Assembly (NCBI RefSeq): GCF_011765625.1
Contig: NZ_CP050315.1
Coordinates: forward strand, 148,171-212,170
Direction of reading: 5' to 3'
Length of the DNA: 64,000 bases
Source: Shewanella aestuarii
GTDB lineage: Bacteria; Pseudomonadota; Gammaproteobacteria; Enterobacterales; Shewanellaceae
The translations under genes were made by a program, and so were the position numbers. The notes beneath the pieces were generated by a model. That model saw only the letters and a program-made list of their open reading frames with translations. It ran no database searches and was not told the DNA's origin. Positions 139 to 42,256 of this stretch are shown piece after piece; position 1 is the stretch's first letter, and every line of letters begins with the position of its first letter.

Positions 139-172
139 AGCCTCGTGATTGATTAGCGGGTCGCAATCGCTA
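139..172 (-). ncRNA. Leader hairpin element, copy 1
   Basis: On the minus strand the stem UAGCG/CGCUA (154-172) closes the loop AUUGCGACC, and a CACGAGG ribosome site (141-147) lies shortly before the ATG at 131. Eight further copies in this window keep the loop and the ribosome site but have different, still complementary stems. This suggests a structured 5'-UTR regulator. Confidence 0.65.
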
Positions 173-189
173 ATTGATTAAGTAAGTTA

Positions 190-231
190 ATAATAGGATA
201 AATTACGAACAAACGCAACCCTTAATTGATA
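190..231 (-). promoter_or_regulatory. Promoter with TATCAATTAAGAGTTG-type box
   Basis: On the minus strand a -35 TTGCGT (213-218) and a -10 TATTAT (190-195) are 17 bp apart, firing towards the gene at 131. The repeated 16-bp box, here TATCAATTAAGGGTTG (216-231), overlaps the -35 hexamer. Confidence 0.6.
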
Positions 232-484
232 TATTTTAAATTATTTTATCAGTGCTGCTAGAAATGCTGCTAGAAATGAATGTCAAATTTGTTGGGCAGA
301 AAACACGCCTGGTAGCATGCATGCCCTGGTGCAAGAAACTCACGCAGAAAACCACCAGCAGATCACCTTTCAAATACTTCTTAAGTACATTTCTATCAAC
401 ATGTGTTAAAGTAACTTTAAAAGACTTTGGCAGTGTTATTTGATAGCACTCTTGATCTTCGGGCCAATACCCAGAGGTGACAAC
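232..484. other. Intergenic stretch before the 485 gene
   Basis: This stretch holds the 15-bp palindrome TTAAAGTAACTTTAA (406-420), which recurs elsewhere in the window, and a Chi-type octamer (352-359, complement strand). A 63-codon frame (252-443) is open here but has no ribosome site and no recognisable product, so I do not call it a gene. Confidence 0.4.
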
Positions 485-1768
485 ATGATTGATAACGCGA
501 TACTTGAAAAAAGCCCTATCGAGATAGACGAATTAGATTCATTAACAAAGTACGGTCAACGCAACATATTGCCTGCTTATAACAGTGTTGAAGTATTGGG
601 CAAAACCGTTATTGAATTTTTAGACGCTTTTGCCATGAAATCGCTTTATCTGAGAAAGTTACTCGTGAAGGAACCGCTAGTGAAAGAACTTGAGCAGCGT
701 ATTGGTGCCATACAAGCTGCATCTGACGCAGCCACATTAACTTTTAGGGATATTGCGAAACCACTACTGACGTTTTTGAACCCAAATCATCCCAGCGCGA
801 AACCGCATGAAATAACGCAAATCATGAATGCGGTCGGGATAGCGCTGACAGGCAATTATGAAAAGATTTCGTCGTTAGTATGTAACGCAAATAGCAAGCT
901 CAGAAAGGTTTCTGATGCTCATGCAAGGATTCCGATCCTCTTAATGTTTCTGACTGACATAAAATATTCAACCATCATGACTGATTATTCGAGTATATAT
1001 GAATTCATTGGTAGGGAATTAAACTACGCCATACCAGGGAAGCGAAAAGTTTATCCGGTAATATCGCTTTTTGAAGAATTTTACGATGCAAGAAATGCCC
1101 GAATTTTATACAACAGGAAGTACACGCCCGAAAGATTTGACATTGTTGCATCCAATATTGCCATGTTTGATGATTATAATTTGTTAAATACGCTTGTGCA
1201 TAAAAGTTATGAGATGCGATTGATTTATTCAATGGAGAGCAGTTTTTACCACCACCAAAACACCACTCGTGAAAGCCAATATAAAAGTGATTTCAGAAAA
1301 TATGTTATTAACGAAATAAAAGGTGAATACAGTCTGTTCCATGGCCGATTTCATGTGTTTGATGACATCTGGGGTGAGTCAGAAAAAGCTGTTGTTAATA
1401 CTTTTCTTGATGATAAAGCGGCAATTGACATTGAACTTGCCGGAGGCGGTTGCTTTAAGCTTGTGTTCACGCAATTAGGTGAGATATATGCTACCGCAGA
1501 AACAACTACGCAATGCTATAAAGTTATTTTACGCCCCGCGAACAGGAAAAAATGTCGAGAGCTTTTCGCTTCTAGTCAAAGAAAATCGGTATTGCAAGAA
1601 GACCCTATTCACTACTCACCTATTTTTGATGATGACATTTTTATGGTTATAGCAAAAAGCGGTACGGATATCTGTGTAGACTTGATAACCCCTGAATATA
1701 TTGAACTTTATGATGAAACCCGTTTTACCTATAAGCAGATAGAAACAAAATTGAAAGAGTATGACTGA
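485..1768 (+). CDS. Hypothetical protein, 427 aa
   Basis: I do not recognise this protein. The start at 485 is preferred over upstream frame extensions because AGAGGTGA lies 5-12 bases ahead of it. The product is soluble and of mixed composition, with no signal peptide, no membrane segment and no visible catalytic motif. The first third (to about residue 130) looks helical. The C-terminal quarter is rich in acidic and aromatic residues and ends in a charged helix. The gene stands alone: a possible recombination repeat (1820-1842) follows and then a lipoprotein gene. No paralogue was noticed in the window. Confidence 0.7.
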   Translation: MIDNAILEKSPIEIDELDSLTKYGQRNILPAYNSVEVLGKTVIEFLDAFAMKSLYLRKLLVKEPLVKELEQRIGAIQAASDAATLTFRDIAKPLLTFLNPNHPSAKPHEITQIMNAVGIALTGNYEKISSLVCNANSKLRKVSDAHARIPILLMFLTDIKYSTIMTDYSSIYEFIGRELNYAIPGKRKVYPVISLFEEFYDARNARILYNRKYTPERFDIVASNIAMFDDYNLLNTLVHKSYEMRLIYSMESSFYHHQNTTRESQYKSDFRKYVINEIKGEYSLFHGRFHVFDDIWGESEKAVVNTFLDDKAAIDIELAGGGCFKLVFTQLGEIYATAETTTQCYKVILRPANRKKCRELFASSQRKSVLQEDPIHYSPIFDDDIFMVIAKSGTDICVDLITPEYIELYDETRFTYKQIETKLKEYD

Positions 1769-1819
1769 CTTCCTGAAAGAAAAACTTCGCGGTATCGTTT
1801 GTATCTCGGAGTTAAGATG

Positions 1820-1842
1820 AGGCTTTACGCGCTATTAGGTAA
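1820..1842 (+). repeat. 23-bp direct repeat, copy A
   Basis: The 23 bases at 1820-1842 (core GGCTTTACGCGCTATTAGGT) recur exactly at 11050-11072 in the same orientation. The two copies bracket about 9.2 kb of cargo, from the lipoprotein gene to the 93-aa gene. Both lie between genes. They could be recombination or attachment sites, or remnants of a duplicated gene end. Confidence 0.6.
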
Positions 1843-1913
1843 ATAGTGTTAATTACATAATTTGTAGTTTAATATCGGATCTCGTTAATCAATAAATAAT
1901 AAAGGGACTTCTG

Positions 1914-2447: not shown

Positions 2448-2633
2448 ATATTGCGTCAATAAAAAGCAATCCAAAACGTTGGCATAAACTCACAATTCGG
2501 GTTGTGTTTCTTATGCCAGTGACATCCAAAATGCCGGTTGCATCCCGTCACACTCCGCAGAGTTAAGGCCAATTACCCCGCACGACAAAATAACGCCATT
2601 TCTAGGTTTGAGGGAGCACTTTGAAACAATGCG
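2448..2633. other. Intergenic region with long hairpin
   Basis: An outer inverted repeat GGCATAA/TTATGCC encloses an inner CACAA-TTCGGG-TTGTG stem at about 2480-2518. There is no T-run, so it may be a processed 3' end or a weak terminator of the lipoprotein gene. No gene is seen. Confidence 0.35.
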
Positions 2634-2672
2634 CAACTTTTAATTGATATATTATTTTTATTGTACTATAGT
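2634..2672 (+). promoter_or_regulatory. Promoter with 16-bp box (inverted)
   Basis: The box in inverse orientation, CAACTTTTAATTGATA (2634-2649), ends in the -35 TTGATA (2644-2649). A 17-bp spacer leads to the -10 TATAGT (2667-2672). Transcription would give a leader carrying the hairpin at 2694-2712. Confidence 0.65.
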
Positions 2673-2693
2673 GAAAACGTCCAATAAATAAAC

Positions 2694-2724
2694 AGCTAAT
2701 TGCGACCTAGCTGAAACCACGAGG
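2694..2724 (+). ncRNA. Leader hairpin element, copy 2
   Basis: Stem AGCUA/UAGCU (2694-2712) closes the loop AUUGCGACC. The ribosome site ACGAGG (2719-2724) sits 8 bases before the ATG at 2733. It is the same element as at 139-172 with a different stem. Confidence 0.65.
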
Positions 2725-2732
2725 TATCTAAG

Positions 2733-3134
2733 ATGAATTTAATCACTCAAGCCGAAGCGAAATTAATCAGAAAAGAATTAACGGCACTTTTAGAGCAATA
2801 TAACCAGACGAATGCACATGGGCTGACTGTTGCGCTGGGCAATGCTAGCTTCAGTGACCATCAAATCACATTCTCAACGACTGCAATCACGAAAATCGAA
2901 GGGACAGGAGATATCAAGCCATCGAAAGAAGCAGGTGATTTTCTAACCTATGCAGAATATTTGGGTTTATCTAAAGATGATTTGGGGAAACCGTTCAGCG
3001 CAAGCGGAAGAGAATTTAAACTTTGCGGTTATAAGCCTCGATCTACTAAGTACCCATTTTTGGGTCAAGATGATGAGGGTAACGTATACAAATTCACAAG
3101 CAAGGTTGTACTCAGCGCGTTTAATGCCGTTTAA
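2733..3134 (+). CDS. Small hypothetical protein, 133 aa
   Basis: I cannot name this family, though its layout resembles small cytoplasmic proteins often carried by phages and plasmids. An N-terminal helix (about residues 5-25) is followed by a segment with the pattern EYLGL..DDLGKPF...GREFKLCGYKPRSTKYPFLGQDDEGNVYKF, which looks like a compact beta-rich domain. There is no signal peptide or membrane segment. The start is fixed by the leader element's ACGAGG 8 bases upstream. Expression should depend on the promoter at 2634-2672 and on the leader hairpin. A factor-independent terminator (3151-3186) ends the unit, so it is monocistronic. Confidence 0.75.
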   Translation: MNLITQAEAKLIRKELTALLEQYNQTNAHGLTVALGNASFSDHQITFSTTAITKIEGTGDIKPSKEAGDFLTYAEYLGLSKDDLGKPFSASGREFKLCGYKPRSTKYPFLGQDDEGNVYKFTSKVVLSAFNAV

Positions 3135-7586: not shown

Positions 7587-7626
7587 TGTGAGATAACGAA
7601 GATCCAGATTAATTCATATTTAATCG

Positions 7627-7665
7627 CAACTCTTAATTGATATATTTATAATGCTCAGTTATACT
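7627..7665 (+). promoter_or_regulatory. Promoter with 16-bp box (inverted)
   Basis: CAACTCTTAATTGATA (7627-7642) contains the -35 TTGATA (7637-7642). A 17-bp spacer leads to the -10 TATACT (7660-7665). This is the clearest promoter of its type here. Confidence 0.7.
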
Positions 7666-7687: not shown

Positions 7688-7715
7688 AAGCTGAATGCGA
7701 CCCAGCTTAGCGAGG
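7688..7715 (+). ncRNA. Leader hairpin element, copy 3
   Basis: Stem AAGCUG/CAGCUU (7688-7693 with 7703-7708) closes the loop AAUGCGACC. GCGAGG (7710-7715) lies 5 bases before the ATG at 7721. The element shows that an upstream in-frame start at 7670 is not the real one. Confidence 0.65.
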
Positions 7716-7720
7716 CATCT

Positions 7721-8134
7721 ATGAATCAACAACAAATAAAAGAATTAACCCGAAACCCTAATGCACTACTCAGATTTCATATGTACGGGGAATTGCCCCG
7801 TTGCACCAATACGCCAGCCACCCCACTTCGCGACTTAATAGAAATTATCCCCAAAAGACTGTGGCGTGAATTTGCGGGTATCACACTGAGCCCAGAATTA
7901 GGATTTAAATCGAAAGCAACGTTTCACAGCCTAACCCAGTTGTACCAGTGGTTAGGCGGCAATAAGACCCTCATTGGTAATCAAACGCTTCCCTACATGA
8001 CTTGGCGTGCTACTCAATTTAGACGCCAATTAACACTTGAAGATTTGTTGGCACATTGCACTAAATCGCCTTCTCAACAGGTGTTATCACTTTATAACTT
8101 AAACAAAGGAGCACGCCACAATGAGCACAATTAA
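7721..8134 (+). CDS. Hypothetical protein, 137 aa
   Basis: I do not recognise this protein. The start at 7721 is chosen because the leader hairpin and its GCGAGG ribosome site end 5 bases before it. The product is basic and soluble, with Trp- and Arg-rich segments (RLWREFAGI, TWRATQFRRQL) that would suit nucleic-acid binding, although no defined motif is visible. The stop overlaps the start of the next gene by 14 bases, so the two are likely translationally coupled. The promoter at 7627-7665 serves both. Confidence 0.7.
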   Translation: MNQQQIKELTRNPNALLRFHMYGELPRCTNTPATPLRDLIEIIPKRLWREFAGITLSPELGFKSKATFHSLTQLYQWLGGNKTLIGNQTLPYMTWRATQFRRQLTLEDLLAHCTKSPSQQVLSLYNLNKGARHNEHN

Positions 8135-9389: not shown

Positions 9390-9719
9390 TCAAGAGAGTT
9401 GAGTTAATATCGCTGCTATGCGGCAGTGATCGAGTCCAGACAACTCACAAATGGTGTTCACATGTTGGCAAATCCACGCTTTATTAAGCGAGGCCCAGTC
9501 AGTGACTTGGTATTGACCATTTTTCTTAGCGCCAACAAACGAAATTTGTACGTTCATGTCTGCTAAAGATAAGATCAGTTTTTGGATGCTACGATTTGGC
9601 CACCCCGTCATTTGCATTAACTTAGGCACTGTATTAACGCCATGTTCGATAAGGTAGGCCACCAGCAATCGCCTGTTAAACCGCATGCTTGCATTATTAA
9701 TGGGATATCTTACTTGCAC
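9390..9719 (-). CDS. Winged-helix DNA-binding protein, 109 aa
   Basis: This small basic protein is probably a transcription regulator. Residues about 11-70 read as a winged helix-turn-helix: RFNRRLLVAYLIEHGV, then PKLMQMTGWPNRSIQKLILSL as the turn and recognition helix, then a wing (SFVGAKKNGQYQVTDWASL). Proteins with this pattern are common on gammaproteobacterial plasmids and integrative elements, but I cannot give a family name with certainty. It lies alone, convergent with the preceding region and in the same direction as the next two genes. It is a possible, untested candidate for the factor that binds the repeated 16-bp box. Confidence 0.7.
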   Translation of the reverse strand: MQVRYPINNASMRFNRRLLVAYLIEHGVNTVPKLMQMTGWPNRSIQKLILSLADMNVQISFVGAKKNGQYQVTDWASLNKAWICQHVNTICELSGLDHCRIAAILTQLS

Positions 9720-10614: not shown

Positions 10615-10896
10615 TTAGCAATGGGTAAATTTCACGCCTTGGTGGTCGTTTAATACCGTATCGGATTGCAAACAGTCATACACAAAGAGATTCGTCACAG
10701 TGCAGTTAATCCAACTGTTGTGTAGTCTTTGCCAAGCACCAATGTATTGACCGGCGCACTTTTTCTTTTGTGCGGTTGATTTTGCTTTATGCACATTCGC
10801 AATATAGGCCTGCTCATGCTCAACAGACGCTTTATCAAGAATTAATTGTGATAATTTGGATTGGTGTTCTGCATCAAGATGGGTAAAGTATGCCAT
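10615..10896 (-). CDS. Small hypothetical protein, 93 aa
   Basis: The start at 10896 (MAYFTHL) is chosen because an upstream in-frame ATG lies inside the leader element, between the hairpin and its ACGAGG ribosome site. The N-terminal half is a charged helix rich in Lys, His and Gln. The second half has several Cys residues and a basic-aromatic stretch (GAWQRLHNSW). I do not recognise it. It carries both regulatory signals typical of the cargo: the leader hairpin (10912-10932) and a promoter whose spacer is exactly the 16-bp box (10960-10975). Confidence 0.7.
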   Translation of the reverse strand: MAYFTHLDAEHQSKLSQLILDKASVEHEQAYIANVHKAKSTAQKKKCAGQYIGAWQRLHNSWINCTVTNLFVYDCLQSDTVLNDHQGVKFTHC

Positions 10897-10902
10897 ATTA
10901 AC

Positions 10903-10932
10903 CTCGTGCATTATCTGGGTCGCAATCAGATA
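10903..10932 (-). ncRNA. Leader hairpin element, copy 4
   Basis: Stem UAUCUG/CAGAUA (10912-10932, minus strand) closes the loop AUUGCGACC, and GCACGAGG follows before the ATG at 10896. The stem differs at several positions from the other copies while staying complementary. Confidence 0.65.
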
Positions 10933-10952: not shown

Positions 10953-10981
10953 ATTATAGTATCAATTAAGAGTTGTGGCAA
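10953..10981 (-). promoter_or_regulatory. Promoter whose spacer contains the 16-bp box
   Basis: On the minus strand TTGCCA (10976-10981) and TATAAT (10953-10958) are separated by 17 bp, of which 16 are the box CAACTCTTAATTGATA. A protein on the box would block this promoter, so repression is the simplest reading. Confidence 0.7.
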
Positions 10982-23909: not shown

Positions 23910-23940
23910 CCTCGTGATTTTATGGCGGGTCGCAATCGCC
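23910..23940 (-). ncRNA. Leader hairpin element, copy 5
   Basis: Stem GGCG/CGCC (23924-23940, minus strand) closes the loop AUUGCGACC, with AUCACGAGG before the ATG at 23902. This copy lies between two genes of one unit, which argues that the element acts after transcription. Confidence 0.65.
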
Positions 23941-24006
23941 AAGTTGATAAGTTTTGGTTGTTTACAAGGCCAGTGAATCACCGGCCTTAGCTGGATTTAG
24001 ATGGAT

Positions 24007-24602: not shown

Positions 24603-24633
24603 CCTCGTGATTTTATGGCGGGTCGCAATCGCC
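24603..24633 (-). ncRNA. Leader hairpin element, copy 6
   Basis: Stem GGCG/CGCC (24617-24633, minus strand), loop AUUGCGACC, then AUCACGAGG and the ATG at 24594. It is nearly the same as copy 5 over about 30 bases. Confidence 0.65.
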
Positions 24634-24648: not shown

Positions 24649-24689
24649 ATTATAGCTATTCAAACAAATAACTCAACCTTTAATTGATA
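24649..24689 (-). promoter_or_regulatory. Promoter with 16-bp box
   Basis: On the minus strand the box TATCAATTAAAGGTTG (24674-24689) runs into the -35 TTGAGT (24671-24676). A 16-bp spacer leads to the perfect -10 TATAAT (24649-24654). Confidence 0.7.
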
Positions 24690-29682: not shown

Positions 29683-30567
29683 TTATGCCTTTTCGGGCAA
29701 ATAGTTAAATTCACTTAACTTGTTATTTAAAAAGGCCACGATTTCGGGATCGAGGTGTAAATGCGCTCGAAAATTATTGAAAAATTGAATGCGCAAACCA
29801 CCATAGGAAATAATGAGGCCTTTGACGTTTGTCAGTTCACGGTCTTGAGAGAGTGAGCGTTTTACTTCGCTGATTAAATCGGTATCAACAATCACCTTAC
29901 CTATCCCGCCTCTATTTTGTTGCCCAAAGACGGTCTTGCTCAAAAAGCTAAGCGCATCCAGAAACTGCGAGCTGTTTGAGAGTGCGTAGTAAACACCATT
30001 TTGCAGAAATGTAGCCCCTTCAAACACGGTGCGCGATTTAAATCGCTTTTTATCGTTTGATACAAATTGGCTTGGGTTCTCGCTAAGACAATCAAATAAA
30101 CTTTCGTAAAGCATCTGCTCTTTGCTGTTAATGATGCTGGTGAGCGTAGACATGACGTTATCTTGAGAAAAAACGCGGTGTTCAACGGCTAATTGCTGCC
30201 TAAACGCTTTTTTTGCGTTGGATGACATGAGCGAATATATATTGAGCCGATTAAATAACATTGACCACAAATTAGAGTCAACGATGTTGGTAAATTGAGC
30301 CATCATGTCTTTGATGTTGCCATTGATAATATTGACGTCTTGAGGACTGTGACGATTGAAATTTTCTTTTAGTAACGATTTAAATTGAAGAAACACGATG
30401 CTCATATAATCATAAAGCGCATCTTCATGTGCGGGTATTGTGTTATCTATTGCACTTGTAATGTCGTGACAACGACGCACTGCTTCAAGTTGTGATTGAT
30501 AAGCGATAAGCAACTGTTCGCGATAATGGCAAAGCTGTTCAATGAGTTCGACTTTAATAATATCCAT
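29683..30567 (-). CDS. DUF4942-like protein without methyltransferase, 294 aa
   Basis: Residues about 120-290 follow the same pattern as the first part of the methyltransferase fusion at 14977: LNIYSLM..., VFSQDNVMSTLTSIINSKEQ, a FKSRTVFEG segment, and near the end RIQFFNNFRAHLHLDPEIVAFLNNKL. It is therefore a stand-alone DUF4942-type protein. The role of this domain is unknown; in the fusion it may guide the methyltransferase to DNA. The start follows the leader hairpin (30586-30606) and its ACGAGG. It is the middle gene of 31202-30642, 30567-29683 and radA. Confidence 0.75.
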   Translation of the reverse strand: MDIIKVELIEQLCHYREQLLIAYQSQLEAVRRCHDITSAIDNTIPAHEDALYDYMSIVFLQFKSLLKENFNRHSPQDVNIINGNIKDMMAQFTNIVDSNLWSMLFNRLNIYSLMSSNAKKAFRQQLAVEHRVFSQDNVMSTLTSIINSKEQMLYESLFDCLSENPSQFVSNDKKRFKSRTVFEGATFLQNGVYYALSNSSQFLDALSFLSKTVFGQQNRGGIGKVIVDTDLISEVKRSLSQDRELTNVKGLIISYGGLRIQFFNNFRAHLHLDPEIVAFLNNKLSEFNYLPEKA

Positions 30568-30576
30568 GTTTAATGC

Positions 30577-30606
30577 CTCGTAGATTAGCTGGGTCGCAAT
30601 CAGCTA
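30577..30606 (-). ncRNA. Leader hairpin element, copy 7
   Basis: Stem UAGCUG/CAGCUA (30586-30606, minus strand), loop AUUGCGACC, then CUACGAGG before the ATG at 30567. It is internal to a unit, like copy 5. Confidence 0.65.
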
Positions 30607-30641: not shown

Positions 30642-31202
30642 TTAATGATTGGTCACGCGAGGGACGAAATGCCAAGGGCAATCGAATCGGCTTTCAATCA
30701 CACTGGCTACAGCGCAAAGACTAAACAATTCGGCCACTTCTGCAATGCTAGATACACAAGCGCTAAAGCCTTTTCTGAATGGGTATGTGTCAGACTCAGG
30801 CGTAAACGAAACCTGATTGGCTATCGGGCTGGCAAGTTTGTGTATTGACTCAGATACGTTAAATCTATGCAGATCATACTGAGCAATGATGTCATCGTTA
30901 AGCGTGACGGCATTATTCATTAAACGATGAATGTGCTGAGTGAACCCTATGGCGCTTGATTCGAATTCACTTGCGATAGATTGGCTAAGGCCATCATCAT
31001 AGAAGTACCCCATTGCAGAGGTGTAATGATGCAAATCCTGTTTTCTGCCAATCCAATCAACACGCGAAGTCCAGCATCTAGGGTAAGTATTGTTGCTACT
31101 TGTGTAACACAACACGGCATATAATGGCTCATCGCTAAAAGCGTTTGTCATCTCAAATGGTAAAGCGCAAACAGTAAAACTTTTAAATGTATCAGAACTC
31201 AT
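30642..31202 (-). CDS. Hypothetical protein, 186 aa
   Basis: I do not recognise it. The start at 31202 (MSSDTFKSFTV) follows the leader's ACGAGG; an upstream start would lie in the leader. The product is soluble, rich in aromatic residues and Ser, with scattered Cys (CYTSSNN, PRCWTSR) and a helical C-terminus (IAEVAELFSLCAVASVI). It is first in a likely three-gene unit with the DUF4942-like protein and radA, which hints at a DNA-related role but proves nothing. Confidence 0.7.
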   Translation of the reverse strand: MSSDTFKSFTVCALPFEMTNAFSDEPLYAVLCYTSSNNTYPRCWTSRVDWIGRKQDLHHYTSAMGYFYDDGLSQSIASEFESSAIGFTQHIHRLMNNAVTLNDDIIAQYDLHRFNVSESIHKLASPIANQVSFTPESDTYPFRKGFSACVSSIAEVAELFSLCAVASVIESRFDCPWHFVPRVTNH

Positions 31203-31206: not shown

Positions 31207-31243
31207 ACCTCGTATCTCAGAATTAAGGCGGGTCGCATTCGCC
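31207..31243 (-). ncRNA. Leader hairpin element, copy 8
   Basis: Stem GGCG/CGCC (31227-31243, minus strand), loop AAUGCGACC, and AUACGAGG before the ATG at 31202. The spacing between hairpin and ribosome site is longer than in other copies. Confidence 0.6.
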
Positions 31244-31255: not shown

Positions 31256-31299
31256 TAATACTAGAGTATATTTGTTCTTTTTGCAACTCTTAATTGATA
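31256..31299 (-). promoter_or_regulatory. Promoter with 16-bp box
   Basis: On the minus strand the box TATCAATTAAGAGTTG (31284-31299) runs into TTGCAA (31282-31287). A TAGTAT 17 bp further on, or TATACT used with an alternative -35 in the box, would be the -10. The same TTGCAA-17-TAGTAT pair occurs at 36353-36381. Confidence 0.55.
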
Positions 31300-31334: not shown

Positions 31335-32201
31335 TTACTGGTTTCTTTTTTGTTCTTCTAGTTGAGATAATTGATCTGCCAATTGCTTGCCCATCCCCGC
31401 GATATGCTTTAATACATCAAGCGTCATTTGGCAGTCACCGATAGCAGTATGCGCGGCTTTATATTTTAAGCGCGACATTTTCACAGCTTGTGACAGTGAC
31501 ATCCTTCTTTTGTCGAGAAAATGCTGTGCTGCAATGACCATCGCATCGTACCAATCCAATTGCTCTAACCAGAAATCATCCTCATCGAAAGCAAGGCAAG
31601 TATTACTCATTTTTTCAGCGTCAAAATCGCAGTTGTAGGCCCAAATGATTTTGTCGGCGGTTATCGCTTTGATTTCATCAATACACTCTTTCCAAGTAGG
31701 TTCGTTTTCTAAATCCGCATCTTTGATATGGTGGATTCGGATAGCCCCATCCTCAATCGCAACAGTTGGTTTAAATCGTTGCTGATATAACACATTCCCT
31801 TTTGCATCGATGATCCCCAACTCGATGACCTGCGCGTTATGATTTAATCCCGTCGTTTCTGTGTCGATGATCAGCACATCATCAAACATTTCCGTCCAAA
31901 GTTGATAGAATTGATAACTCATCTCCATCTTGATTTTGTTTTTAAAAGCCAATATTTTTCCAGCGAGAATTTGCTTAGGCGTCGGCGGTGTTGTTGAGGC
32001 GTTAGTGACCCGCAAAGGCACGCACTCCGTCAGAAGATAAATAGGATTTTTACCACCGTTATAGGGTGATTTAACATAATCATGGACCTTTGCGTCAGGC
32101 TTTGGCTTCATTTTAAATTCTGAGCGCAAACGAGTAACACCGAATGCGAGCTTATCCGCTATCGCTTTTTGCCTAAGAATCTCTAGTGCTTCGTCCATCA
32201 T
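31335..32201 (-). CDS. DnaQ-like 3'-5' exonuclease, 288 aa
   Basis: The DEDDh exonuclease motifs are present: DTETTGL (Exo I), a YNCDFDAEKM version of Exo II, and HTAIGDCQMT (Exo III, His plus Asp). The fold occupies about residues 115-285. The first 110 residues are an unusual basic extension rich in Lys and Pro. The family trims 3' ends in proofreading or repair; this copy may support plasmid replication or process DNA ends with RecA and RadA. The start at 32201 follows GGGAGGGATTGCAC. Its promoter (32253-32294) has the 16-bp box but no leader hairpin was found. Confidence 0.88.
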   Translation of the reverse strand: MMDEALEILRQKAIADKLAFGVTRLRSEFKMKPKPDAKVHDYVKSPYNGGKNPIYLLTECVPLRVTNASTTPPTPKQILAGKILAFKNKIKMEMSYQFYQLWTEMFDDVLIIDTETTGLNHNAQVIELGIIDAKGNVLYQQRFKPTVAIEDGAIRIHHIKDADLENEPTWKECIDEIKAITADKIIWAYNCDFDAEKMSNTCLAFDEDDFWLEQLDWYDAMVIAAQHFLDKRRMSLSQAVKMSRLKYKAAHTAIGDCQMTLDVLKHIAGMGKQLADQLSQLEEQKRNQ

Positions 32202-32252
32202 GTGCAATCCCTCCCAGTAATATTAAGGTTGTAGCAACGCTTGTCTTACATA

Positions 32253-32294
32253 ATATTATCTAATACCACATTATTTAACAACTCTTAATTGATA
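32253..32294 (-). promoter_or_regulatory. Promoter with 16-bp box
   Basis: On the minus strand the box TATCAATTAAGAGTTG (32279-32294) runs into TTGTTA (32276-32281). A 17-bp spacer leads to TAATAT (32253-32258). Confidence 0.6.
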
Positions 32295-32347
32295 TATTTT
32301 AAGGTGTAATTTACCTTTGTTACCTCAGTTTTGTGCTGGTGGATAAT

Positions 32348-32830
32348 CTATTTTTTGGCATGTTCCTTTAAAATTGAGACAATTTTCTCAAATGCCTTAC
32401 AAGATCTAACAATGTTCGGATACACAATTTTGTTTTCAAGTTCATCCATTTCATTAATTTGTTGCATCGCTGCGGTGTAACTCAGTTGTTGTTTAAATAC
32501 TAAGGTAAATAACATCCGATATTCCGGTTTGGGCGGGCGTTTATGTAACAGACAGATTAAATCAATGCCTTTATCGGTCAGCAGGTCTAATGATTTAAAT
32601 CGCCGCAAATGGGTAATCGCATTTCGTTTATTTACAAACACATCAAACGCCGTCGTAATGTACCGGCTAAGCGGGTAGCGAACCTCATTTAAATCGATGT
32701 CTTTACCCGTTAAAAAGGCACTATGGATGATTTTGGCGCAGTCAGGATCGCGATTTTCAGTGATAAATTGCCGTACAAACGCGATTTCTTCTTCTGAAAG
32801 CGCTTTAAATGGGTTTTTTAAGATTCTCAT
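32348..32830 (-). CDS. Hypothetical protein downstream of the DndC-like gene, 160 aa
   Basis: I do not recognise it. It is a basic, mostly helical protein (LSEEEIAFVRQFI, AITHLRRFKSLDLLTDKGIDLICLL) ending in a Lys-rich tail. It starts 22 bp after the 1136-aa DndC-like gene and on the same strand, so it is probably part of the module. Its size is near that of DndE, but I see no DndE-like motif. Confidence 0.7.
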   Translation of the reverse strand: MRILKNPFKALSEEEIAFVRQFITENRDPDCAKIIHSAFLTGKDIDLNEVRYPLSRYITTAFDVFVNKRNAITHLRRFKSLDLLTDKGIDLICLLHKRPPKPEYRMLFTLVFKQQLSYTAAMQQINEMDELENKIVYPNIVRSCKAFEKIVSILKEHAKK

Positions 32831-32851
32831 GATGACCTCGATATATTCTGT

Positions 32852-35800
32852 TTAGCTAGCGGCTAGCATGGCATTAAATTGTTGAATGTTATGTTTCATT
32901 AAAGTCGCAAGTTTTGCGGTTTTAACGGACGCTGATAATGTTGATTTGGCCTCGCTTTTACTGACATCGCTATAAGTTAGCCATTTATCAAAGCAAGCAT
33001 GTTGGGTCAGTAAGCATGTGTTTAACGCATTTTGTAACTGTTCCATACTGTTGTTGTAACGATGCTGTATTTTTAATTCCGTATTCGCATAGGAAAGGTC
33101 TGAAATAATGCCATATCCCAAGTAAACCTGATGATTGGCATAGGCTAAGACTTGGGTTAATTGGTTTGCAACGAGACATTGATTTGCCCTATCAAAGTGC
33201 AAACTAACAAATTGACTCAGTTTATCGACCAATTCACCTGTCTTGCCACCAGCAAAGTAAGTGGCATCTTGCGCGGCGATAGATAAAGTATCACTTTGCG
33301 CCATGGCCATGAGTGTACCTAACGCATCGTGCGGTATATTTGCGAATTCAGTTAAAGTAACTTTAATCGTATTAATATGGTTTGAGAAGGCATTAAGATA
33401 GACAGAAAAGTCATCAAAATTGCCGGTGATCTCATTCGCTTCGTCCTTAACTGACAGAACAGTTAACGCCTGGTTCGGTTCGGAAATGACCTGGGCATAC
33501 TCATCGAGCCACATGCCCAATTTCTTTGCTCTTAATGCTGCATCTGGATTAAACGCGGCATACACCTGAGCGGCGAGATAGCTTTTGCTAATCTGAATAT
33601 AATGACGAACAAACTCATTTAATCTGTCTGTGACATTCATTAAAGCGATATTGCCGTTGGCATTAGCCAGTTTTTGTTTCATGTCACGACGTTCTATATG
33701 TTTGATGTAGCGAACTGCCAATAAATGATCAACTTTCTGTGCGCGATGCTCATCCATACAGATCACGTTATCGAGTGATAATAACGCTTCACGGCTGAGA
33801 TTAGCGACGTTAAATAAGCCTGCATGATGAAAGACTTCAGTGCGTTTTAATGTGTTTTGGAAATTACTGGCTAATCGGGTACTGATACTCAGGCCAGTTG
33901 TATTAGTAATCGTGTATACCGGTCCCGTTCCATAGAATTGTCGGATCGGCTTTCTATCTTTAATACGATTGGCCAATACCGTGTCATGATGCTCAAGTAA
34001 TCTTTCTATGCCGCCTTCAGACATCCATATCGCAAATAACGCCTCATCGAAGATAAAGTTCAATGATAAGTCATCGGTATCTAACTCACTGGTCCCAATA
34101 TTGATTGACTGATTAATTTGGTACGCAGGCAACCAGTAGCTAACAAGATTAATGCGCTGCTCGACTTCAGACGCACGCTCATTAGCACTATACATTTTTA
34201 ACGAAGCACGACCCGTTACATAACGGCCAGTAGATTTATCAAACACCCGTTTTCTTTCTGAGAATTGTCGGGTTTTAGTCGCTTTAAGGCGTTTTTCTTG
34301 ACTGTAATGAGCAATGGGACTGGTGAATAATACTTGGTCTGATAGTTCATGATCAGATACGCGCTTTTGCAGGTTATGGCCATGTTGTTCGAAATCCTGC
34401 TTTGCAAGCGTTAAGCATACATCGCGTAAATGCGTATTTGCATCTAAATTAATGATTTTGCTAGTTTGTAAGCATTTGACCGATAGGTTTTCTTTGCCTG
34501 TCACACTATCGCGTTGATAAGTAATGCGGATTTTTCGGGTGTTGGCACTGGTGTTTTGGCTAAATAGCTGTAAGTCATGATGCTGGTGGAACTGAACGGC
34601 AGCGTCTTGCCAATATTGCGCTAATTCAAAAGGCAAAAGTGTTTGTAAATGGGATTTATTCAGTAAGTCACCATGCTGCTTTTTGAGTTTCGCAAACGAT
34701 TGTTTGGCTGGTGTAAATAGCTGCGCAACTACGGCGTCTGGGATAGATTGAGTGCGCAGTTCCTCTTGAAACGAGATAAGGCCTTGTTGTGCGCGTTTGG
34801 CATTTAATTCAGCATTCGTCATCGGAAATGGAAGGCGTTTCCCTTTCAATACGGCCTCATAGATAGCAAGAGGACGATAAGGTAGCGCGGTGATCCCATG
34901 GAGGCTCCATAAAAGTGACAGCAATACCGCATGCTGGTGGCTAAACAAGGTAAACATCGGTCCTTTGAGCATCCGATTGGTGTACATCTCAATATATTGT
35001 TTCCGAACACTGGCGTTCAGTGAGGGGTCGGATTGAATGTCTTTAATGCCAATATCTTGATCAACTTTACCCGTATGATAGAGCGCCACGAAAGATTCAT
35101 GGATTTGTTGGCTATCCAGTGAGATTTGTGAGGCATACCATACCAACTTTTCCAAAACCGATGCTTTTAGGATATTTGGCTGAAAGAACACGTTGTTATT
35201 GCCACTGCGGTCATAGGCTCTTGCGTGAAATGCACGACAATGAATATCATCACTCACACGAGTCAGGAAATCACGAAAGCGCAATGTAGAATCACCAAAG
35301 CGTGACCACCGAACATATTCGTTTAATTCTTTAGCGCTTTTATCATCGCCCACCATACCGCATGTCACGCAGCCGAAACGGGCCACTTTCCCGCACCCGC
35401 TTTGCTTAGGTTTGTCATCTTCAGAGGCCACCAGCTCACATCGTTCATTGCTACCTTCACCATAAATAGACAATAAAAGCCCAAAATTTTCGCTATAACA
35501 GGAAATTTGGGTGCCAGGTAAACATTTGTTGATAGCGTTAGTCCCAGCATGGGTTAAATAAGCGATGACATCATCAAGCACCCAATGTCCAATCGGCGCA
35601 AAACGAAACACTTTTCCTGAATGCCCTTCTGCTTTTATTTGATCAAGCAATGCTTCCGCTTTAAGTGACTTTACGCCTTGTTTAGACATATTGTTGCTTC
35701 TGCGTGAAGATTCGTCGGAACGCTGCCCAGCAACAGAAACCCACGGCGCCATTTGGTATTTTTCGGGTAAACCTGCTTTTATCGCTTTAAGGGCGCGAAT

Positions 35801-36262
35801 ATTGGTATCTACTTTAAAGATTTTAGAGCAATCTGCCGAGCGACCTGACGATGCGGTAGCAAATAATTTTTGGGCATTGGCAAATAAGATCATCAGTTGA
35901 TGATGAAACGGGGGAGTAACGATTTTTGCGTAAAGATTAATCCCTAGCGCTTCACAACGTTTGATCACATTTTGATGCGCGTAATCGACATAGCACTGAA
36001 TAGGTTCAGGCTCTAGCAAGGTATCGACAGTTAACACGACCAAAGGGTGATCTTGTGCAATCACCCCAGCGTTAAGCGCCCTACCCATGGCTTCAATGGC
36101 GGCATTGGTGATAGAGGTGGAGTCTTTACCGTGAGAAGTTGAGATCTGCAAACAAACACCGGCCTTTAATAGCGTCATGTATTCAGCGATTAGCGCTTCA
36201 CTGAGCTGATATGCATGTTTTGCAACCTCTGCCTTGTGGGAACCTAAATCAAATATTTGCAT
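32852..36262 (-). CDS. DndC-like PP-loop protein with large C-terminal extension, 1136 aa
   Basis: The first 350 residues match the DndC/PAPS-reductase type of ATP pyrophosphatase used in DNA phosphorothioation: a PP-loop SHGKDST (43-49, His replacing the second residue of SGGKDS), VDTLLEPEPI, GQRSDESSRRS, WVLDDVIAYL, and the Fe-S type cluster CGKVARFGCVTCGMVGDDKS. The remaining 780 residues, far beyond DndC length, are helical and unrecognised. ATG at 36262 (MQIFDLG) is preferred to 36322 because it places the start after the promoter. The protein may insert sulphur or a related group into DNA or RNA. It is divergent from the DndB-like gene, and dndD and dndE are missing; dndA/iscS could be supplied by the chromosome. 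Confidence 0.8.
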   Translation of the reverse strand: MQIFDLGSHKAEVAKHAYQLSEALIAEYMTLLKAGVCLQISTSHGKDSTSITNAAIEAMGRALNAGVIAQDHPLVVLTVDTLLEPEPIQCYVDYAHQNVIKRCEALGINLYAKIVTPPFHHQLMILFANAQKLFATASSGRSADCSKIFKVDTNIRALKAIKAGLPEKYQMAPWVSVAGQRSDESSRRSNNMSKQGVKSLKAEALLDQIKAEGHSGKVFRFAPIGHWVLDDVIAYLTHAGTNAINKCLPGTQISCYSENFGLLLSIYGEGSNERCELVASEDDKPKQSGCGKVARFGCVTCGMVGDDKSAKELNEYVRWSRFGDSTLRFRDFLTRVSDDIHCRAFHARAYDRSGNNNVFFQPNILKASVLEKLVWYASQISLDSQQIHESFVALYHTGKVDQDIGIKDIQSDPSLNASVRKQYIEMYTNRMLKGPMFTLFSHQHAVLLSLLWSLHGITALPYRPLAIYEAVLKGKRLPFPMTNAELNAKRAQQGLISFQEELRTQSIPDAVVAQLFTPAKQSFAKLKKQHGDLLNKSHLQTLLPFELAQYWQDAAVQFHQHHDLQLFSQNTSANTRKIRITYQRDSVTGKENLSVKCLQTSKIINLDANTHLRDVCLTLAKQDFEQHGHNLQKRVSDHELSDQVLFTSPIAHYSQEKRLKATKTRQFSERKRVFDKSTGRYVTGRASLKMYSANERASEVEQRINLVSYWLPAYQINQSINIGTSELDTDDLSLNFIFDEALFAIWMSEGGIERLLEHHDTVLANRIKDRKPIRQFYGTGPVYTITNTTGLSISTRLASNFQNTLKRTEVFHHAGLFNVANLSREALLSLDNVICMDEHRAQKVDHLLAVRYIKHIERRDMKQKLANANGNIALMNVTDRLNEFVRHYIQISKSYLAAQVYAAFNPDAALRAKKLGMWLDEYAQVISEPNQALTVLSVKDEANEITGNFDDFSVYLNAFSNHINTIKVTLTEFANIPHDALGTLMAMAQSDTLSIAAQDATYFAGGKTGELVDKLSQFVSLHFDRANQCLVANQLTQVLAYANHQVYLGYGIISDLSYANTELKIQHRYNNSMEQLQNALNTCLLTQHACFDKWLTYSDVSKSEAKSTLSASVKTAKLATLMKHNIQQFNAMLAAS

Positions 36263-36293
36263 GATAGTAGCCGGGAAGTTAAATGTTGAACCC

Positions 36294-36394
36294 AATATAA
36301 CAATATCAACTGAGGGTTGCAACCTTTACGTGATACTTATATCAATTAAGAGTTGCAATGGTTCGACTGTTGATTTAGTATCAATTAAAAGTTG
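36294..36394. promoter_or_regulatory. Divergent promoter region with three 16-bp boxes
   Basis: The leftward promoter has TTGCAA (36317-36322) and TATATT (36294-36299), 17 bp apart, with a variant box TATCAACTGAGGGTTG (36304-36319) covering its spacer. The rightward promoter has TTGCAA (36353-36358) and TAGTAT (36376-36381), 17 bp apart. Boxes at 36340-36355 and 36379-36394 cover its -35 and its -10/start. Both genes are thus probably controlled together by the same factor. Confidence 0.7.
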
Positions 36395-36412
36395 TCAAAT
36401 AGGGGTTTAACC

Positions 36413-37588
36413 ATGGAACATCTAGAACGCGAAATACACATTCCAAAATACGCCATTACCGCCGATTCTGATTTAACCATGCTGGTGGTTGAAGGCAAAG
36501 AAGGCATTGGTAGTACATTCAGCACAAAATTAAGCTTCGATGAATGTGAACGATTTATCGATATTGAAGATGAAAGCATCCCCGAGCGAGAACGATTACA
36601 GCGAAATGCCGATAAGGGTCGGGTCAATGGCATACGAGATTATCTGATTAATCGTGATAACACGTTTTTCCCAAGTGTGATTTTGGTTGTATCATCATTG
36701 GAATTGGTGCCAGTAGAAGTGGGTTTCGGTGAAGTTCGAGTCCATAAAGCCACGTTAAAAGCCAATGTGGATCGACTATTAATCGATGGCCAAGGACGCT
36801 TAACGGGTATTCGACAAGCGCTTAAAGTCAGACCTGAGTTAGCTTCACATCATCTTGATGTAAAAATAGTCGTGCTGAATACAGCCAAAATCAGAGATTC
36901 AGCAAAATTTGTTACGCAAATATTTGCAGACTTGCATCTCAATCTGAAAAAACCAAATGCAAGTCAATCTATCTGGTTTGATAGTGAAACCAATCTAAAC
37001 CGTTTAACGAATGATGTACTAGAAACCACAGAGCGAATGGGTATCCCTTTTGCCGACTCGGTAGCGGTCAATGGGAAATTGTCTTGTGGCCAGATTTTTA
37101 CGCTAGCCAATGTGACCGATTTTATTTCTATTATGGCAGCGTCCAGTACCAGCAAAAAATCCGTGAATGCCGTGTTAAATGATACAGATAATTACGATCT
37201 GTATAGGGTTCTCGTCGCGCAATACATACAAGCTATTTATCACACGCTGCCCTTACAAGAGGTCCATGATGCCGATGATGCGCAATGGAAGTCAGCATTA
37301 AATAACCAAATATTACTTTGCGCCATCGGGTTAAAAGCATTGGCTTGGGTTGGAAGATCGATTATAGAAGATGCGTTAGCTAATGATCGCACCCAACTAG
37401 ACTTTACGCCGCTCAACAAACTGCACGACTTACCGTTGTCCGATAAGGCGAATGAATTGTGGTTAAAAAAAGGGATTTTTAATAAGGATGTCGATGGCAA
37501 AATTAAAATAGTTAAAGGCTCTGAAAAACGGTTAGCCGCCGTTCTATGTCAATCAATCCGTCTGCTCCCAGCAGCAGAATTGGTATAA
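36413..37588 (+). CDS. DndB-like DGQ-motif protein, 391 aa
   Basis: The motif IDGQGRLTGIRQAL (about residues 123-136) is the signature of DndB/DGQHR proteins, here with Gly in place of His. DndB is the regulatory and modification-linked partner in phosphorothioation systems and can act as a transcription repressor. Upstream strands (TFFPSVILVVSS) and downstream helices (KFVTQIFADLHLNLKKPNASQ) fit the family, as does the length. ATG at 36413 follows AGGGGTTTAACC. It is divergent from the DndC-like gene under shared boxes and is followed 11 bp later by a small gene. Confidence 0.82.
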   Translation: MEHLEREIHIPKYAITADSDLTMLVVEGKEGIGSTFSTKLSFDECERFIDIEDESIPERERLQRNADKGRVNGIRDYLINRDNTFFPSVILVVSSLELVPVEVGFGEVRVHKATLKANVDRLLIDGQGRLTGIRQALKVRPELASHHLDVKIVVLNTAKIRDSAKFVTQIFADLHLNLKKPNASQSIWFDSETNLNRLTNDVLETTERMGIPFADSVAVNGKLSCGQIFTLANVTDFISIMAASSTSKKSVNAVLNDTDNYDLYRVLVAQYIQAIYHTLPLQEVHDADDAQWKSALNNQILLCAIGLKALAWVGRSIIEDALANDRTQLDFTPLNKLHDLPLSDKANELWLKKGIFNKDVDGKIKIVKGSEKRLAAVLCQSIRLLPAAELV

Positions 37589-40418: not shown

Positions 40419-40425
40419 TTTTAAA

Positions 40426-40525
40426 TTCCTTACATTATGCCCTGCAGATGCGAGCGTCTTTGTTGATATGCTAAGTGAACAATTAAAGTATATCGCACCC
40501 TTGTCGCACCCGCAAGTTTTTCTTA
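40426..40525 (-). repeat. Duplicated promoter-leader, copy 2
   Basis: Partner of 39548-39648. On the minus strand TTGCGG, a 17-bp spacer and TATACT form a better promoter than in copy 1. It begins at the very stop of the cytosine methyltransferase gene. Confidence 0.75.
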
Positions 40526-41884
40526 TCAATTTGTCAATACATCGCGTAGCAAACATTGAAATATCCCGAAGGCCTGCAAGAAATCCACGCCCTGCCCTAG
40601 CCCTTCATAGGCTGTTGAATCACATACATTTTGAATGAGGTGTGCAGGTACACTCTGCGCTCTGGCTAATTCTGATGGTGTGAGTAAACGCATCGTATTG
40701 TTGGGACCGGCAATGTGGCATTCAGTAGCTCGGTCTTTTTGGTACCCCTTGCCGATTGTACCTATTCTTTGAGTGATGTTTGGGTCAACGAGGTTAAAGC
40801 CAAAGCCTTTACCTGCTGCTTTATTGACTGCGGCTTTGCGAATTTTTTCTTTTGTTGACTTCCACATATTCGAGGCATGAGGAATGCAATCAAGAAGGGA
40901 TGCCAGATTGCTGTATTTGGGTGCAAATTTTGGAAAGTTAGCCAAATCAACAGTTGGCAAGTTTTGGGATGTGGCGACAAACCAATAACGCTCTCGATTC
41001 TCAAAAGAATTCGTTTGTTCAGAGCTGAGCGTCCTTTCTGCTATGTTGTAGCCGTACATGGCCAGCAAGCTTTTTAACAGCACATAGGTTGCAGAATGCA
41101 TTGCTGGTACAACATTCTCGCTGACCAAGATAGAGGGGTTGCATGCGTCAATGATCTTAATTAAACCGAAGACTGCGGTTGCGTCGGTAGCATGTTCCTC
41201 TGGGATCTTAATACGGTTTTTGGAACGCCCAGAAAGGCTCATGCCGCTGCAAGGTAAGCTAAAAGAAAGAATATCGACATAATCAAGCAATTCTGGCTCG
41301 ATTTCTTCTAGACTGGCTTCGAAAATTTTGGTGGTACCATCGATTGCGTGATTGTTTTGAGTCAATAGATCAAGATACTTGCGCTCTCTGTCTACAACAA
41401 ACTTCGTTTTGCAATGAAGTTGAGAACTCAAAGCATCATGACCTGCAGCTGCGCTAACACCGATACCCACACAAACGACACCTTTGGTTATTTCACCATT
41501 AGTCACATTGCGTTTTAAGCGTGCTTCACGCTCTTCAATTTTGCAATCTAGATGATGTATCGAAATGTGGATTTCATTTTCGTAAAAATCTACGCGAACC
41601 TTAGTTGCTTGTCCCGTGATATCGATTAACTTTGATTTGGCCAGCTCGATAATGGGCGTCACAATCTTTGTTTTGTTGTTAACCCTGCCAGAGACAAAGC
41701 GGCAGTTTTCATTAGGCGTATCAAGCAATCGTAAAACGATAGTGCGCGTATCTATATTAAAAACGGTTTCAAAGGGCTGACCTTTGTGAAAGTTTGACGC
41801 GGTTAAATTGCCGCCCTGCAACCAAATTCTTGGCACACCTTTGTTTGTACCCACTTTGTAATAGCCATGCTGCTTTGCTCTCAT
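40526..41884 (-). CDS. Divergent DNA cytosine-C5 methyltransferase, 452 aa
   Basis: The C5-methyltransferase motifs appear in order after an unusual N-terminal domain of about 145 residues: motif I (VGIGVSAAAGHDAL), motif IV SLPCSGMSLSG with the catalytic Cys (PCS rather than PCQ), motif VI SENV, motif VIII ENRERYWFVA, and motifs IX/X LLTPSELARAQSVP with GLGQGVDFLQAF in place of QIGNSVP. It probably methylates cytosine in DNA to avoid restriction. ATG at 41884 is preferred to a TTG at 41896; the GTTGGGG leader is shared with the adenine methyltransferase gene. No cognate endonuclease is seen. The promoter lies at 41930-41959. Confidence 0.85.
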   Translation of the reverse strand: MRAKQHGYYKVGTNKGVPRIWLQGGNLTASNFHKGQPFETVFNIDTRTIVLRLLDTPNENCRFVSGRVNNKTKIVTPIIELAKSKLIDITGQATKVRVDFYENEIHISIHHLDCKIEEREARLKRNVTNGEITKGVVCVGIGVSAAAGHDALSSQLHCKTKFVVDRERKYLDLLTQNNHAIDGTTKIFEASLEEIEPELLDYVDILSFSLPCSGMSLSGRSKNRIKIPEEHATDATAVFGLIKIIDACNPSILVSENVVPAMHSATYVLLKSLLAMYGYNIAERTLSSEQTNSFENRERYWFVATSQNLPTVDLANFPKFAPKYSNLASLLDCIPHASNMWKSTKEKIRKAAVNKAAGKGFGFNLVDPNITQRIGTIGKGYQKDRATECHIAGPNNTMRLLTPSELARAQSVPAHLIQNVCDSTAYEGLGQGVDFLQAFGIFQCLLRDVLTN

Positions 41885-41930
41885 GATTAACCCCAACTTT
41901 AGTCATTTACATTAAAAATGAAGATACTAC

Positions 41931-41959
41931 GTTTTTAAATATATATCAATTAAGAGTTG
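41931..41959 (-). promoter_or_regulatory. Promoter with 16-bp box (inverted)
   Basis: On the minus strand CAACTCTTAATTGATA (41944-41959) contains the -35 TTGATA. A 17-bp spacer leads to a weak -10 TATCTT near 41921-41926, driving the cytosine methyltransferase. Confidence 0.55.
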
Positions 41960-42042
41960 CGTTAAAATCAATGATTATTTTAAATTATTAAAATGCATGT
42001 ATTTTTTTTCAATGGGAGGAATAAGCGAGGAAATTAAAAAAA

Positions 42043-42129
42043 ATGGGCGGCTGGAAAAACACACTTAAGGGAGAGGGAGGGTTAACCAGCCACCAAATGA
42101 ACAAGATTCACTTTACAAGTACACAATAG
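42043..42129 (+). CDS. Possible 28-aa peptide
   Basis: A short frame (MGGWKNTLKGEGG...) lies inside an inverted repeat (GGCTGG/CCAGCC). GCGAGG is rather far upstream. Weak evidence; it may be only part of a structured RNA. Confidence 0.2.
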   Translation: MGGWKNTLKGEGGLTSHQMNKIHFTSTQ

Positions 42130-42203
42130 GTGTACTACAGAAATTTGTCAATGAAAGAGAAAATAAAAGAGTTCACGGTAGAGAGCTAGAAAGGGTTGAG
42201 GAT

Positions 42204-42256
42204 GTAGGGCAGCGAAGTTTGCGACCCGCTGCCCTACGGTGCTGAAGGCCACGAGG
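42204..42256 (+). ncRNA. Leader hairpin element, copy 9, without a coding frame
   Basis: A perfect 11-bp stem GUAGGGCAGCG/CGCUGCCCUAC (42204-42214 with 42227-42237) closes the loop AAGUUUGCGACC, the longest stem of the family. CACGAGG follows at 42250-42256, but no ATG, GTG or TTG stands at the usual distance. A 40-codon open stretch follows without a start. It is either a broken leader or a free RNA. parA starts 170 bp further on. Confidence 0.55.

Follow-up and report, generated by a model that had tools for sequence, protein, structure and literature searches.

The DNA analysed here (the window) represents the last 64,000 bases of contig C3 of Shewanella aestuarii (NZ_CP050315.1, 212,170 bp) and carries nine copies of a short RNA hairpin with a constant loop, eight of them just ahead of the start codons of small genes. 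The S. aestuarii genome comprises 4.47 Mb in three contigs, of which C1 is the chromosome. C3 is a plasmid, since a long conserved backbone is common to it and the S. xiamenensis plasmid NZ_CP106875.1, whose annotation includes Dot/Icm-type secretion genes. C3 is probably also conjugative, although this relative is typed as non-mobilizable in PLSDB. Furthermore, a contig of S. inventionis (genome G044, contig C8; 138,642 bp) was considered. Plasmid coordinates are prefixed with C3 (own plasmid), G44 (S. inventionis), SX (S. xiamenensis) or AM (Alteromonas mediterranea).

Altogether, 13 copies of the hairpin were observed on C3, five on the plus and eight on the minus strand. All nine copies claimed for the window in a preliminary description of its sequence are present, and four further copies (C3:132520+, 136469-, 140171+ and 147296-) lie at most 16 kb upstream of the window. 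In twelve of the 13 copies, the hairpin is followed by [AG]CGAGG, then by 5-9 bases and an ATG, the exception being the copy at window positions 42204-42237. The eight window copies that precede an ATG, as had been described, are the following (SD, Shine-Dalgarno sequence):

152..174, minus strand: hairpin ATTAGCG-ATTGCGACC-CGCTAAT; SD ACGAGG at 141-146, start ATG at 131
2693..2713, plus strand: hairpin CAGCTA-ATTGCGACC-TAGCTG; SD ACGAGG at 2719-2724, gene 2733-3134
7688..7708, plus strand: hairpin AAGCTG-AATGCGACC-CAGCTT; SD GCGAGG at 7710-7715, gene 7721-8134
10912..10932, minus strand: hairpin TATCTG-ATTGCGACC-CAGATA; SD ACGAGG at 10902-10907, gene 10615-10896
23923..23941, minus strand: hairpin TGGCG-ATTGCGACC-CGCCA, inside a transcription unit; SD ACGAGG at 23910-23915, gene 23414-23902
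24617..24633, minus strand: hairpin GGCG-ATTGCGACC-CGCC; SD ACGAGG at 24603-24608, gene 24007-24594; hairpin kept at the S. inventionis ortholog
30586..30606, minus strand: hairpin TAGCTG-ATTGCGACC-CAGCTA, inside a transcription unit; SD ACGAGG at 30576-30581, DUF4942 gene 29683-30567
31227..31243, minus strand: hairpin GGCG-AATGCGACC-CGCC; SD ACGAGG at 31208-31213, gene 30642-31202

Among the twelve copies, stems of 4 to 7 bp closed by a G-C, A-T or T-A pair enclose the loop ATTGCGACC (ten copies) or AATGCGACC (two copies). The preliminary description had assigned the constant loop, in a different form at the last copy, and a following ACGAGG or GCGAGG to all nine window copies; an ACGAGG or GCGAGG ribosome site ahead of an ATG is present at the eight listed above and not at 42204-42237 (C3:190374), which has a 12-nt loop and no gene start after it. 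Stems do pair though their sequences differ, as had been stated, and some are longer than had been given (e.g., 7 bp at 152-174). Gene order also agrees with the placement of two copies (23923-23941 and 30586-30606) inside transcription units. The downstream genes had been called unrelated, and the best BLASTP E-value among the 12 encoded proteins was indeed 0.12. A Pfam scan of nine hairpin-gene proteins returned one domain, DUF4942; of ten such proteins, the DUF4942 protein gave the one match in a PHROGs scan, and none matched in a PADLOC scan.

Within the window, the loop motif TGCGACC occurs 12 times (3.67 expected; 12 reached in 0 of 100 shuffles), and nine of these occurrences are the hairpins. 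On both strands of C3, searched without requiring a gene, 29 TGCGACC sites were counted. Twelve of them are flanked by a stem of at least four Watson-Crick pairs, against a background of 0.51% of all C3 positions at the fixed 9-nt-loop geometry, and all twelve are copies in sense direction ahead of an ATG. In the whole 4.47-Mb genome, the element pattern gave 14 matches, 13 on C3 and one on contig C2, the latter not listed by the structure filter. Moreover, among GAGG-type gene starts of C3, RCGAGG was present at nine of nine counted element genes vs. two of 37 others. A TnpB-like gene of IS605 type was also observed (window 25064-26320), with a hairpin carrying the loop ATTAGCGACCA at its downstream end (about 25015, C3:173185). 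This look-alike was left out, its likeness to the element being probably due to chance.

In order to evaluate selection on the structure, 15 of the 17 copies from C3 and the S. inventionis contig were aligned (alignment A1; C3:190374 and G44:71089, with longer loops, were left out). Of the 84 cells, 91.7% are paired and the covariation score is 0.894, values each reached by 0 of 500 shuffles; both uphold the earlier proposal that compensatory stem changes reflect a selected RNA structure. Two of the five measures were coarser: double changes at six of six pairs were reached by 50 of 500 shuffles, and the further-pair-types measure by 42. Sliding one arm gave at most 38.1% paired cells. Furthermore, eight of the 12 C3 hairpin genes have an ortholog in S. 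inventionis (tblastn), and the hairpin was kept at four of these, absent by eye at three and doubtful at one. The four kept hairpins are:

G44 47690, plus strand: loop CCTACGACA, ahead of the ortholog of C3 gene 178812
G44 49209, plus strand: loop CTTGCGACC, ahead of the ortholog of C3 gene 172177
G44 68755, plus strand: loop ATCGCGACT, ahead of the ortholog of C3 gene 146839
G44 71089, minus strand: hairpin AATGC-AGTAGCGACCA-GCATT, ahead of the ortholog of C3 gene 140216; ribosome site TAGAGG

In the S. inventionis loops the core RCGAC is kept and the flanks vary (the relaxed-loop test covered C3 and this contig).

Upstream of the hairpins, a dyad operator that the preliminary description had not mentioned was recognized. 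At nine of the 12 C3 elements, a match to TATCAATTAARRGTTGC, in either orientation, precedes the stem by 44-62 nt and overlaps, by eye, the promoter -35 region. The elements at 140171, 172104 and 178768 lie inside units that gene order traces back to such an operator; for the copy at 190374, one is located 260 nt upstream. With up to three mismatches allowed, C3 has 24 operators and the S. inventionis contig 21, compared with 0-4 in five mononucleotide shuffles for C3 and 1-4 in shuffles for the contig; exact copies were found in two of 152 family genomes. The operator is plasmid-specific and on C3 begins the units holding hairpin genes. Its occurrences in the window are:

215..231, minus strand: operator TATCAATTAAGGGTTGC
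2633..2649, minus strand: operator, orientation opposite to the gene
7626..7642, minus strand: operator, orientation opposite to the gene
10960..10976, plus strand: operator with one mismatch, orientation opposite to the gene
24673..24689, minus strand: operator with one mismatch, beginning the unit with hairpins 24617 and 23923
31283..31299, minus strand: operator, beginning the unit with hairpins 31227 and 30586
41944..41960, plus strand: operator upstream of the double-hairpin stretch described below
36304..36395, no strand: operator cluster between the divergent PAPS-reductase-like (32852-36322, minus) and DndB-like (36392-37588, plus) genes

Operators are clustered between the DndB-like and PAPS-reductase-like genes in S. 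inventionis, too. The regulator acting at the operator may be the DndB-like protein or the HTH_43 protein encoded at 9390-9719 (minus strand). In a simple promoter scan, the best -10 box was located 12-22 nt ahead of the stem at 19 of 28 elements; its score was equalled by at most 10 of 100 shuffles at 15 of the 28 and by more at the rest.

DNA-level sites may take the form of inverted repeats flanking a fixed spacer, and dyad operators are present nearby on the plasmid. It is nevertheless very improbable that the element acts as DNA, be it as a dyad-arm operator, as a cruciform or as a single-strand promoter during plasmid entry. A dyad operator would conserve its arms, whereas in this element it is the spacer that stays constant while the arms vary; moreover, copies occupy both strands, twelve of them in sense just ahead of an ATG, and promoter-like boxes and operators precede the hairpin at many sites. 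Single-stranded promoters of the Frpo/ssi type carry their promoter boxes inside the hairpin and on one strand only; this candidate was rejected in view of the copies on both strands and the promoter-like boxes upstream at many sites.

The hairpin could also be a mere 5' stabilizer of the mRNA or a ribosome-standby structure that was copied together with the promoter and engages no specific factor. Its position near the predicted mRNA start is in line with such a role, and duplicated promoter modules would account for many copies ahead of unrelated genes. However, a stabilizer needs a stem and not an invariant 7-nt loop on changing stems. Two lineages hold two different loops, and the RCGAGG preference and the double hairpins, both addressed below, are left unexplained, so that this explanation is considered improbable.

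A second loop type, likewise not mentioned in the preliminary description, became apparent on other plasmids. A search on the S. xiamenensis plasmid in which no loop was named pointed to CTCCTAC among the over-represented hairpin loops. The corresponding hairpins have variable stems and the loop ACTCCTAC or a close variant, followed by GCGAGG or ACGAGG and an ATG; the DNA dyad upstream is often TGGCGYATTRCGCCA. The constant loop ACUCCUAC was found in the same layout, with covarying stems and usually CGAGG, on plasmids of S. xiamenensis, Alteromonas (two plasmids) and Vibrio nigripulchritudo. Hairpins on the last three are:

A. mediterranea plasmid: 65195 (minus), 85687 (plus), 89527 (plus)
V. 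nigripulchritudo plasmid: 4500 (plus), 13488 (plus), 146794 (minus); ribosome sites TCGAGG or ATGAGG
A. macleodii plasmid: 290309 (minus), 289432 (minus)

Eight copies chosen for 8-nt loops on three second-type plasmids, among them SX:166556 without RCGAGG, were aligned (alignment A2); the remaining CTCCTAC copies, with other loop lengths, and AM:89441, which repeats the stem of 85687, stand outside it. In A2, 85.7% of cells are paired and the covariation score is 1.046, each reached by 0 of 500 shuffles, and two of the five measures were reached by 228 and 3 of 500 shuffles. In addition, 6-mers in hairpins ahead of GAGG-type gene starts were ranked blindly, with no shuffle control. The top rank was held by TGCGAC/GCGACC on C3 (12 of 115 sites) and, on the S. 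xiamenensis plasmid, by CTCCTA/TCCTAC (nine of 117). The constant-loop 6-mer was first in V. nigripulchritudo (three of 98) and tied first with A/T-rich words in A. mediterranea (three of 108), and no loop was outstanding in this uncontrolled ranking on the plasmids of A. caviae, A. wodanis, V. campbellii or A. macleodii. Among GAGG-type gene starts of the S. xiamenensis plasmid, RCGAGG was present at six of six element genes vs. seven of 33 others. Considering 36 elements from six plasmids, RCGAGG was found in 31 and NCGAGG in 33. Predicted folds gave a mean stem pairing of 0.79 (a stem was found in 35 of the 36; the loop-offset limit of the fold script left the G44:71084 row without a good one) and a loop unpaired to 0.91. 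The ribosome site lies beyond the end of the stem and thus outside the hairpin.

The element is real, structured and conserved. The data favour a selected RNA structure close to the ribosome site, with the loop as the part that is read, because of the compensatory changes together with the hairpins kept at four of eight S. inventionis orthologs, the sense orientation of all stem-bearing TGCGACC sites, the promoter-like boxes and operators upstream at many sites, the lack of an Rfam match (see below), and the reuse of the layout with a different loop on other plasmids.

The ninth window copy differs from the others. It had been described as one more copy of the element; the hairpin and its shared loop were confirmed, and it proved to be half of a double hairpin:

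42204..42237, plus strand: part A, 11-bp stem showing the loop AAGTTTGCGACC, no gene start after it
42240..42265, plus strand: part B, TGCTGAAGGCC-ACGA-GGCTATCGGCA, carrying CCACGAGG (ACGA in the loop, GG in the stem)

The first gene start after the double hairpin is that of parA at 42427, where a separate ribosome site is seen by eye. When nine plasmids were searched blindly for pairs of consecutive hairpins, the first of any kind and the second with CGAGG in the loop, seven matches were obtained. Four of these show TCCTAC in the first loop (S. xiamenensis, A. mediterranea, V. nigripulchritudo and A. macleodii), and three do not (two in A. caviae, one in V. campbellii). An additional double hairpin was observed at A. 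mediterranea 89275. With stems of 5-11 bp, double hairpins display both parts of the mRNA site, i.e., the loop and CGAGG. In S. xiamenensis, in V. nigripulchritudo and at A. mediterranea 89275 they are located between annotated genes, and by eye double hairpins come close behind a gene or open frame.

Upstream of parA, the window also contains a purine-rich stretch, AAGGGAGAGG (41975-42200), apparently in a hairpin whose stem differs in S. inventionis and still pairs; it may represent either a short reading frame or a second noncoding RNA. An array of 50 copies of the palindrome GAACATGTTC lies downstream of the partition genes (46443-49642; spacing about 64 bp where inspected) and is a probable centromere. 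The S. inventionis contig carries AACGCGTT repeats at 31707-34794 in place of this array.

Based on these observations, the hairpin is proposed to act in cis as an RNA element of plasmid mRNAs, close to their 5' end. The loop is constant on a free stem, and therefore something would read it. A trans-acting factor, most likely an RNA-binding protein, would recognize the constant loop and the following [A/G]CGAGG ribosome site, and would thereby control how a group of small, mutually unrelated genes is translated. The simplest way would be to cover the ribosome site; blocking is the expected sign of control, and helping translation is less likely. The double hairpin, presenting the same loop on a longer stem and CGAGG in its second hairpin, would titrate the factor as a decoy and release the regulon. 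The loop, and with it the specificity of the factor, would differ by plasmid lineage: UGCGACC on C3, RCGAC in S. inventionis and ACUCCUAC in S. xiamenensis, Alteromonas and V. nigripulchritudo. That a single factor touches both sites is suggested because the C of CGAGG is kept in 33 of 36 elements and a second RNA element, the double hairpin, shows both; the C of RCGAGG adds nothing to pairing with the 16S tail. We infer control at the level of translation or mRNA stability, and the probability of the translational reading with a decoy is put at roughly 0.55.

Several results weigh against this proposal. No protein was found that is common to all six element plasmids and absent from the three without the element, with several backbone proteins present in five of the six. 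Five of the 36 elements lack RCGAGG; outside this set, SX:166556 has GCGGGG and AM:89441 has no CGAGG. In the predicted folds, GAGG is on average unpaired to only 0.37, and therefore other pairing near the ribosome site may provide additional masking. In S. inventionis, the orthologs of 155840, 158785 and 171584 are those without a hairpin by eye, and that of the DUF4942 gene is the doubtful one. The formal search missed the C3 double hairpin because the GG of its CGAGG is paired in the stem, and found none on the S. inventionis contig. Furthermore, the A. mediterranea annotation has a small gene (85400-85576) overlapping the pair at 85519 on the opposite strand, and double hairpins may be parts of 3' untranslated regions and not free RNAs.

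The factor reading the loop could also be an antisense small RNA that forms a kissing complex with it, and not a protein. The loops are short, exposed and replaced wholesale between lineages, changes that an antisense RNA would follow easily, and a decoy would titrate a small RNA equally well. Allowing one G-U wobble, three hairpins with complementary loops were obtained (C3:116692+, G44:59061+ and G44:105290+), but all lie in protein-coding stretches. Exact loop complements in hairpins of the plasmids screened were confined to the elements' own opposite strands (the S. xiamenensis match 223925+ is that of its double hairpin), and three GGTCGCA sites outside long frames on C3 (42961, 134089 and 142859) are not in hairpin loops according to the filter applied. 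In addition, the S. inventionis loop keeps only RCGAC between varying flanks and is poorly suited to a long duplex. The screen for a plasmid-encoded antisense RNA gave no good candidate, and such a reader is rated as rather unlikely.

Two further candidates were rejected. Cas6e as the hairpin reader is absent from the own genome. Mimicry of rRNA for a ribosomal protein was dismissed: TGCGACC is absent from the rRNA operon, and ACTCCTAC occurs once in 16S rRNA, where 8% of all 8-mers occur in the operon anyway. On the S. xiamenensis plasmid, a gene annotated Cas6/Cse3/CasE was observed next to a helicase gene (locus L300 39421-40047, NZ_CP106875.1 139421-140047), with no further Cas gene in the 50-kb listing.

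Searches for further occurrences gave few matches. The exact-loop pattern matched 13 of 129 genus genomes, only the own genome having more than two matches, and four of 152 family genomes. In GTDB genome contigs, a pattern for one stem type only gave two matches. IMG/VR was scanned twice with the exact loop, the first scan covering the matches listed only. An initial protein-based scan gave no match in genome contigs, and neither did another in IMG/VR. Applied to 254 collected loci, the structure filter returned this plasmid and three weak, chance-like matches (L063, L078 and L158). Three more genus genomes have partial homologs of the 24007 gene; by eye, no hairpin was seen at these, nor ahead of DUF4942 in the three of 15 DUF4942 plasmid records that were inspected. 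The pattern ACTCCTACN{2,26}CGAGG matched five of 12 plasmid records (one from Acidovorax, stem not checked) and none in the other seven; its reversed control gave one match in all. Exact-loop searches are shown to underestimate the spread, because the S. inventionis contig has changed loops.

Tentatively, large plasmids of aquatic gammaproteobacteria may run a post-transcriptional regulon of their own, with a lineage-specific RNA loop code in which the stem-loop plus CGAGG layout is retained and loop and reader are swapped together, and with their own decoy RNA; this broader view is possible rather than probable. If it were true, the insulation between related plasmids that exists at operators and centromeres would extend to the RNA level. 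If the proposed mechanism is right, the system would constitute a plasmid-encoded counterpart of Csr, in which many orphan genes are switched jointly via a short loop and released by a decoy, and the orphan genes of these plasmids would become testable as one regulon. Moreover, two loop types on one layout would represent a natural experiment on change and orthogonality of RNA recognition and would supply a set of short parts for synthetic translation control.

Comparison with known systems included Rfam 15. At gathering score, no match was obtained in the window, in agreement with the earlier remark that no known riboswitch or regulator was recognized, nor in the A. mediterranea, V. nigripulchritudo and S. 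xiamenensis stretches; rRNA and tRNA were found as positive control. Region 41900-42450 gave one match far below gathering score. No description of the element was found among the papers listed in searches of the open-licence PMC literature, and it is not described in the sources searched. The Guanidine-II (mini-ykkC) riboswitch also comprises two hairpins, and C3 part B has an ACGA loop; however, each mRNA here has one hairpin with a constant loop of 7-9 nt, and the tandem ACGR-loop hairpins of this riboswitch had no Rfam match in the window or at 41900-42450. The TwoAYGGAY motif consists of paired hairpins with conserved loops. Its loop AYGGAY differs from UGCGACC or ACUCCUAC of the element. 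Gammaproteobacteria are among the hosts listed for this motif in a published table (Weinberg et al. 2010, PMC2864571). Considering phages, the operator hairpins of coat proteins and of T4 gp43 offer another parallel. There, a protein reads a loop on a stem beside the ribosome site, but these are single autoregulatory sites, in contrast to a dispersed regulon with two loop types and a putative decoy.

A parallel in principle is provided by CsrA/RsmA with CsrB/RsmZ, in which many targets are combined with a noncoding RNA showing both sites. Csr/Rsm sites are located in a hairpin loop and at the ribosome site and are defined by GGA, whereas the element loops UGCGACC, RCGAC and CUCCUAC (A1 and A2) lack GGA. 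The only CsrA above cut-off is encoded on chromosome C1 and none on the plasmid; a second match (E-value 0.87) was below cut-off. Furthermore, one double hairpin per site was found and not many (two sites in A. mediterranea; no search for other decoy forms was made). The double hairpin is best read as a titrating decoy that is CsrB-like in principle but unrelated to Csr.

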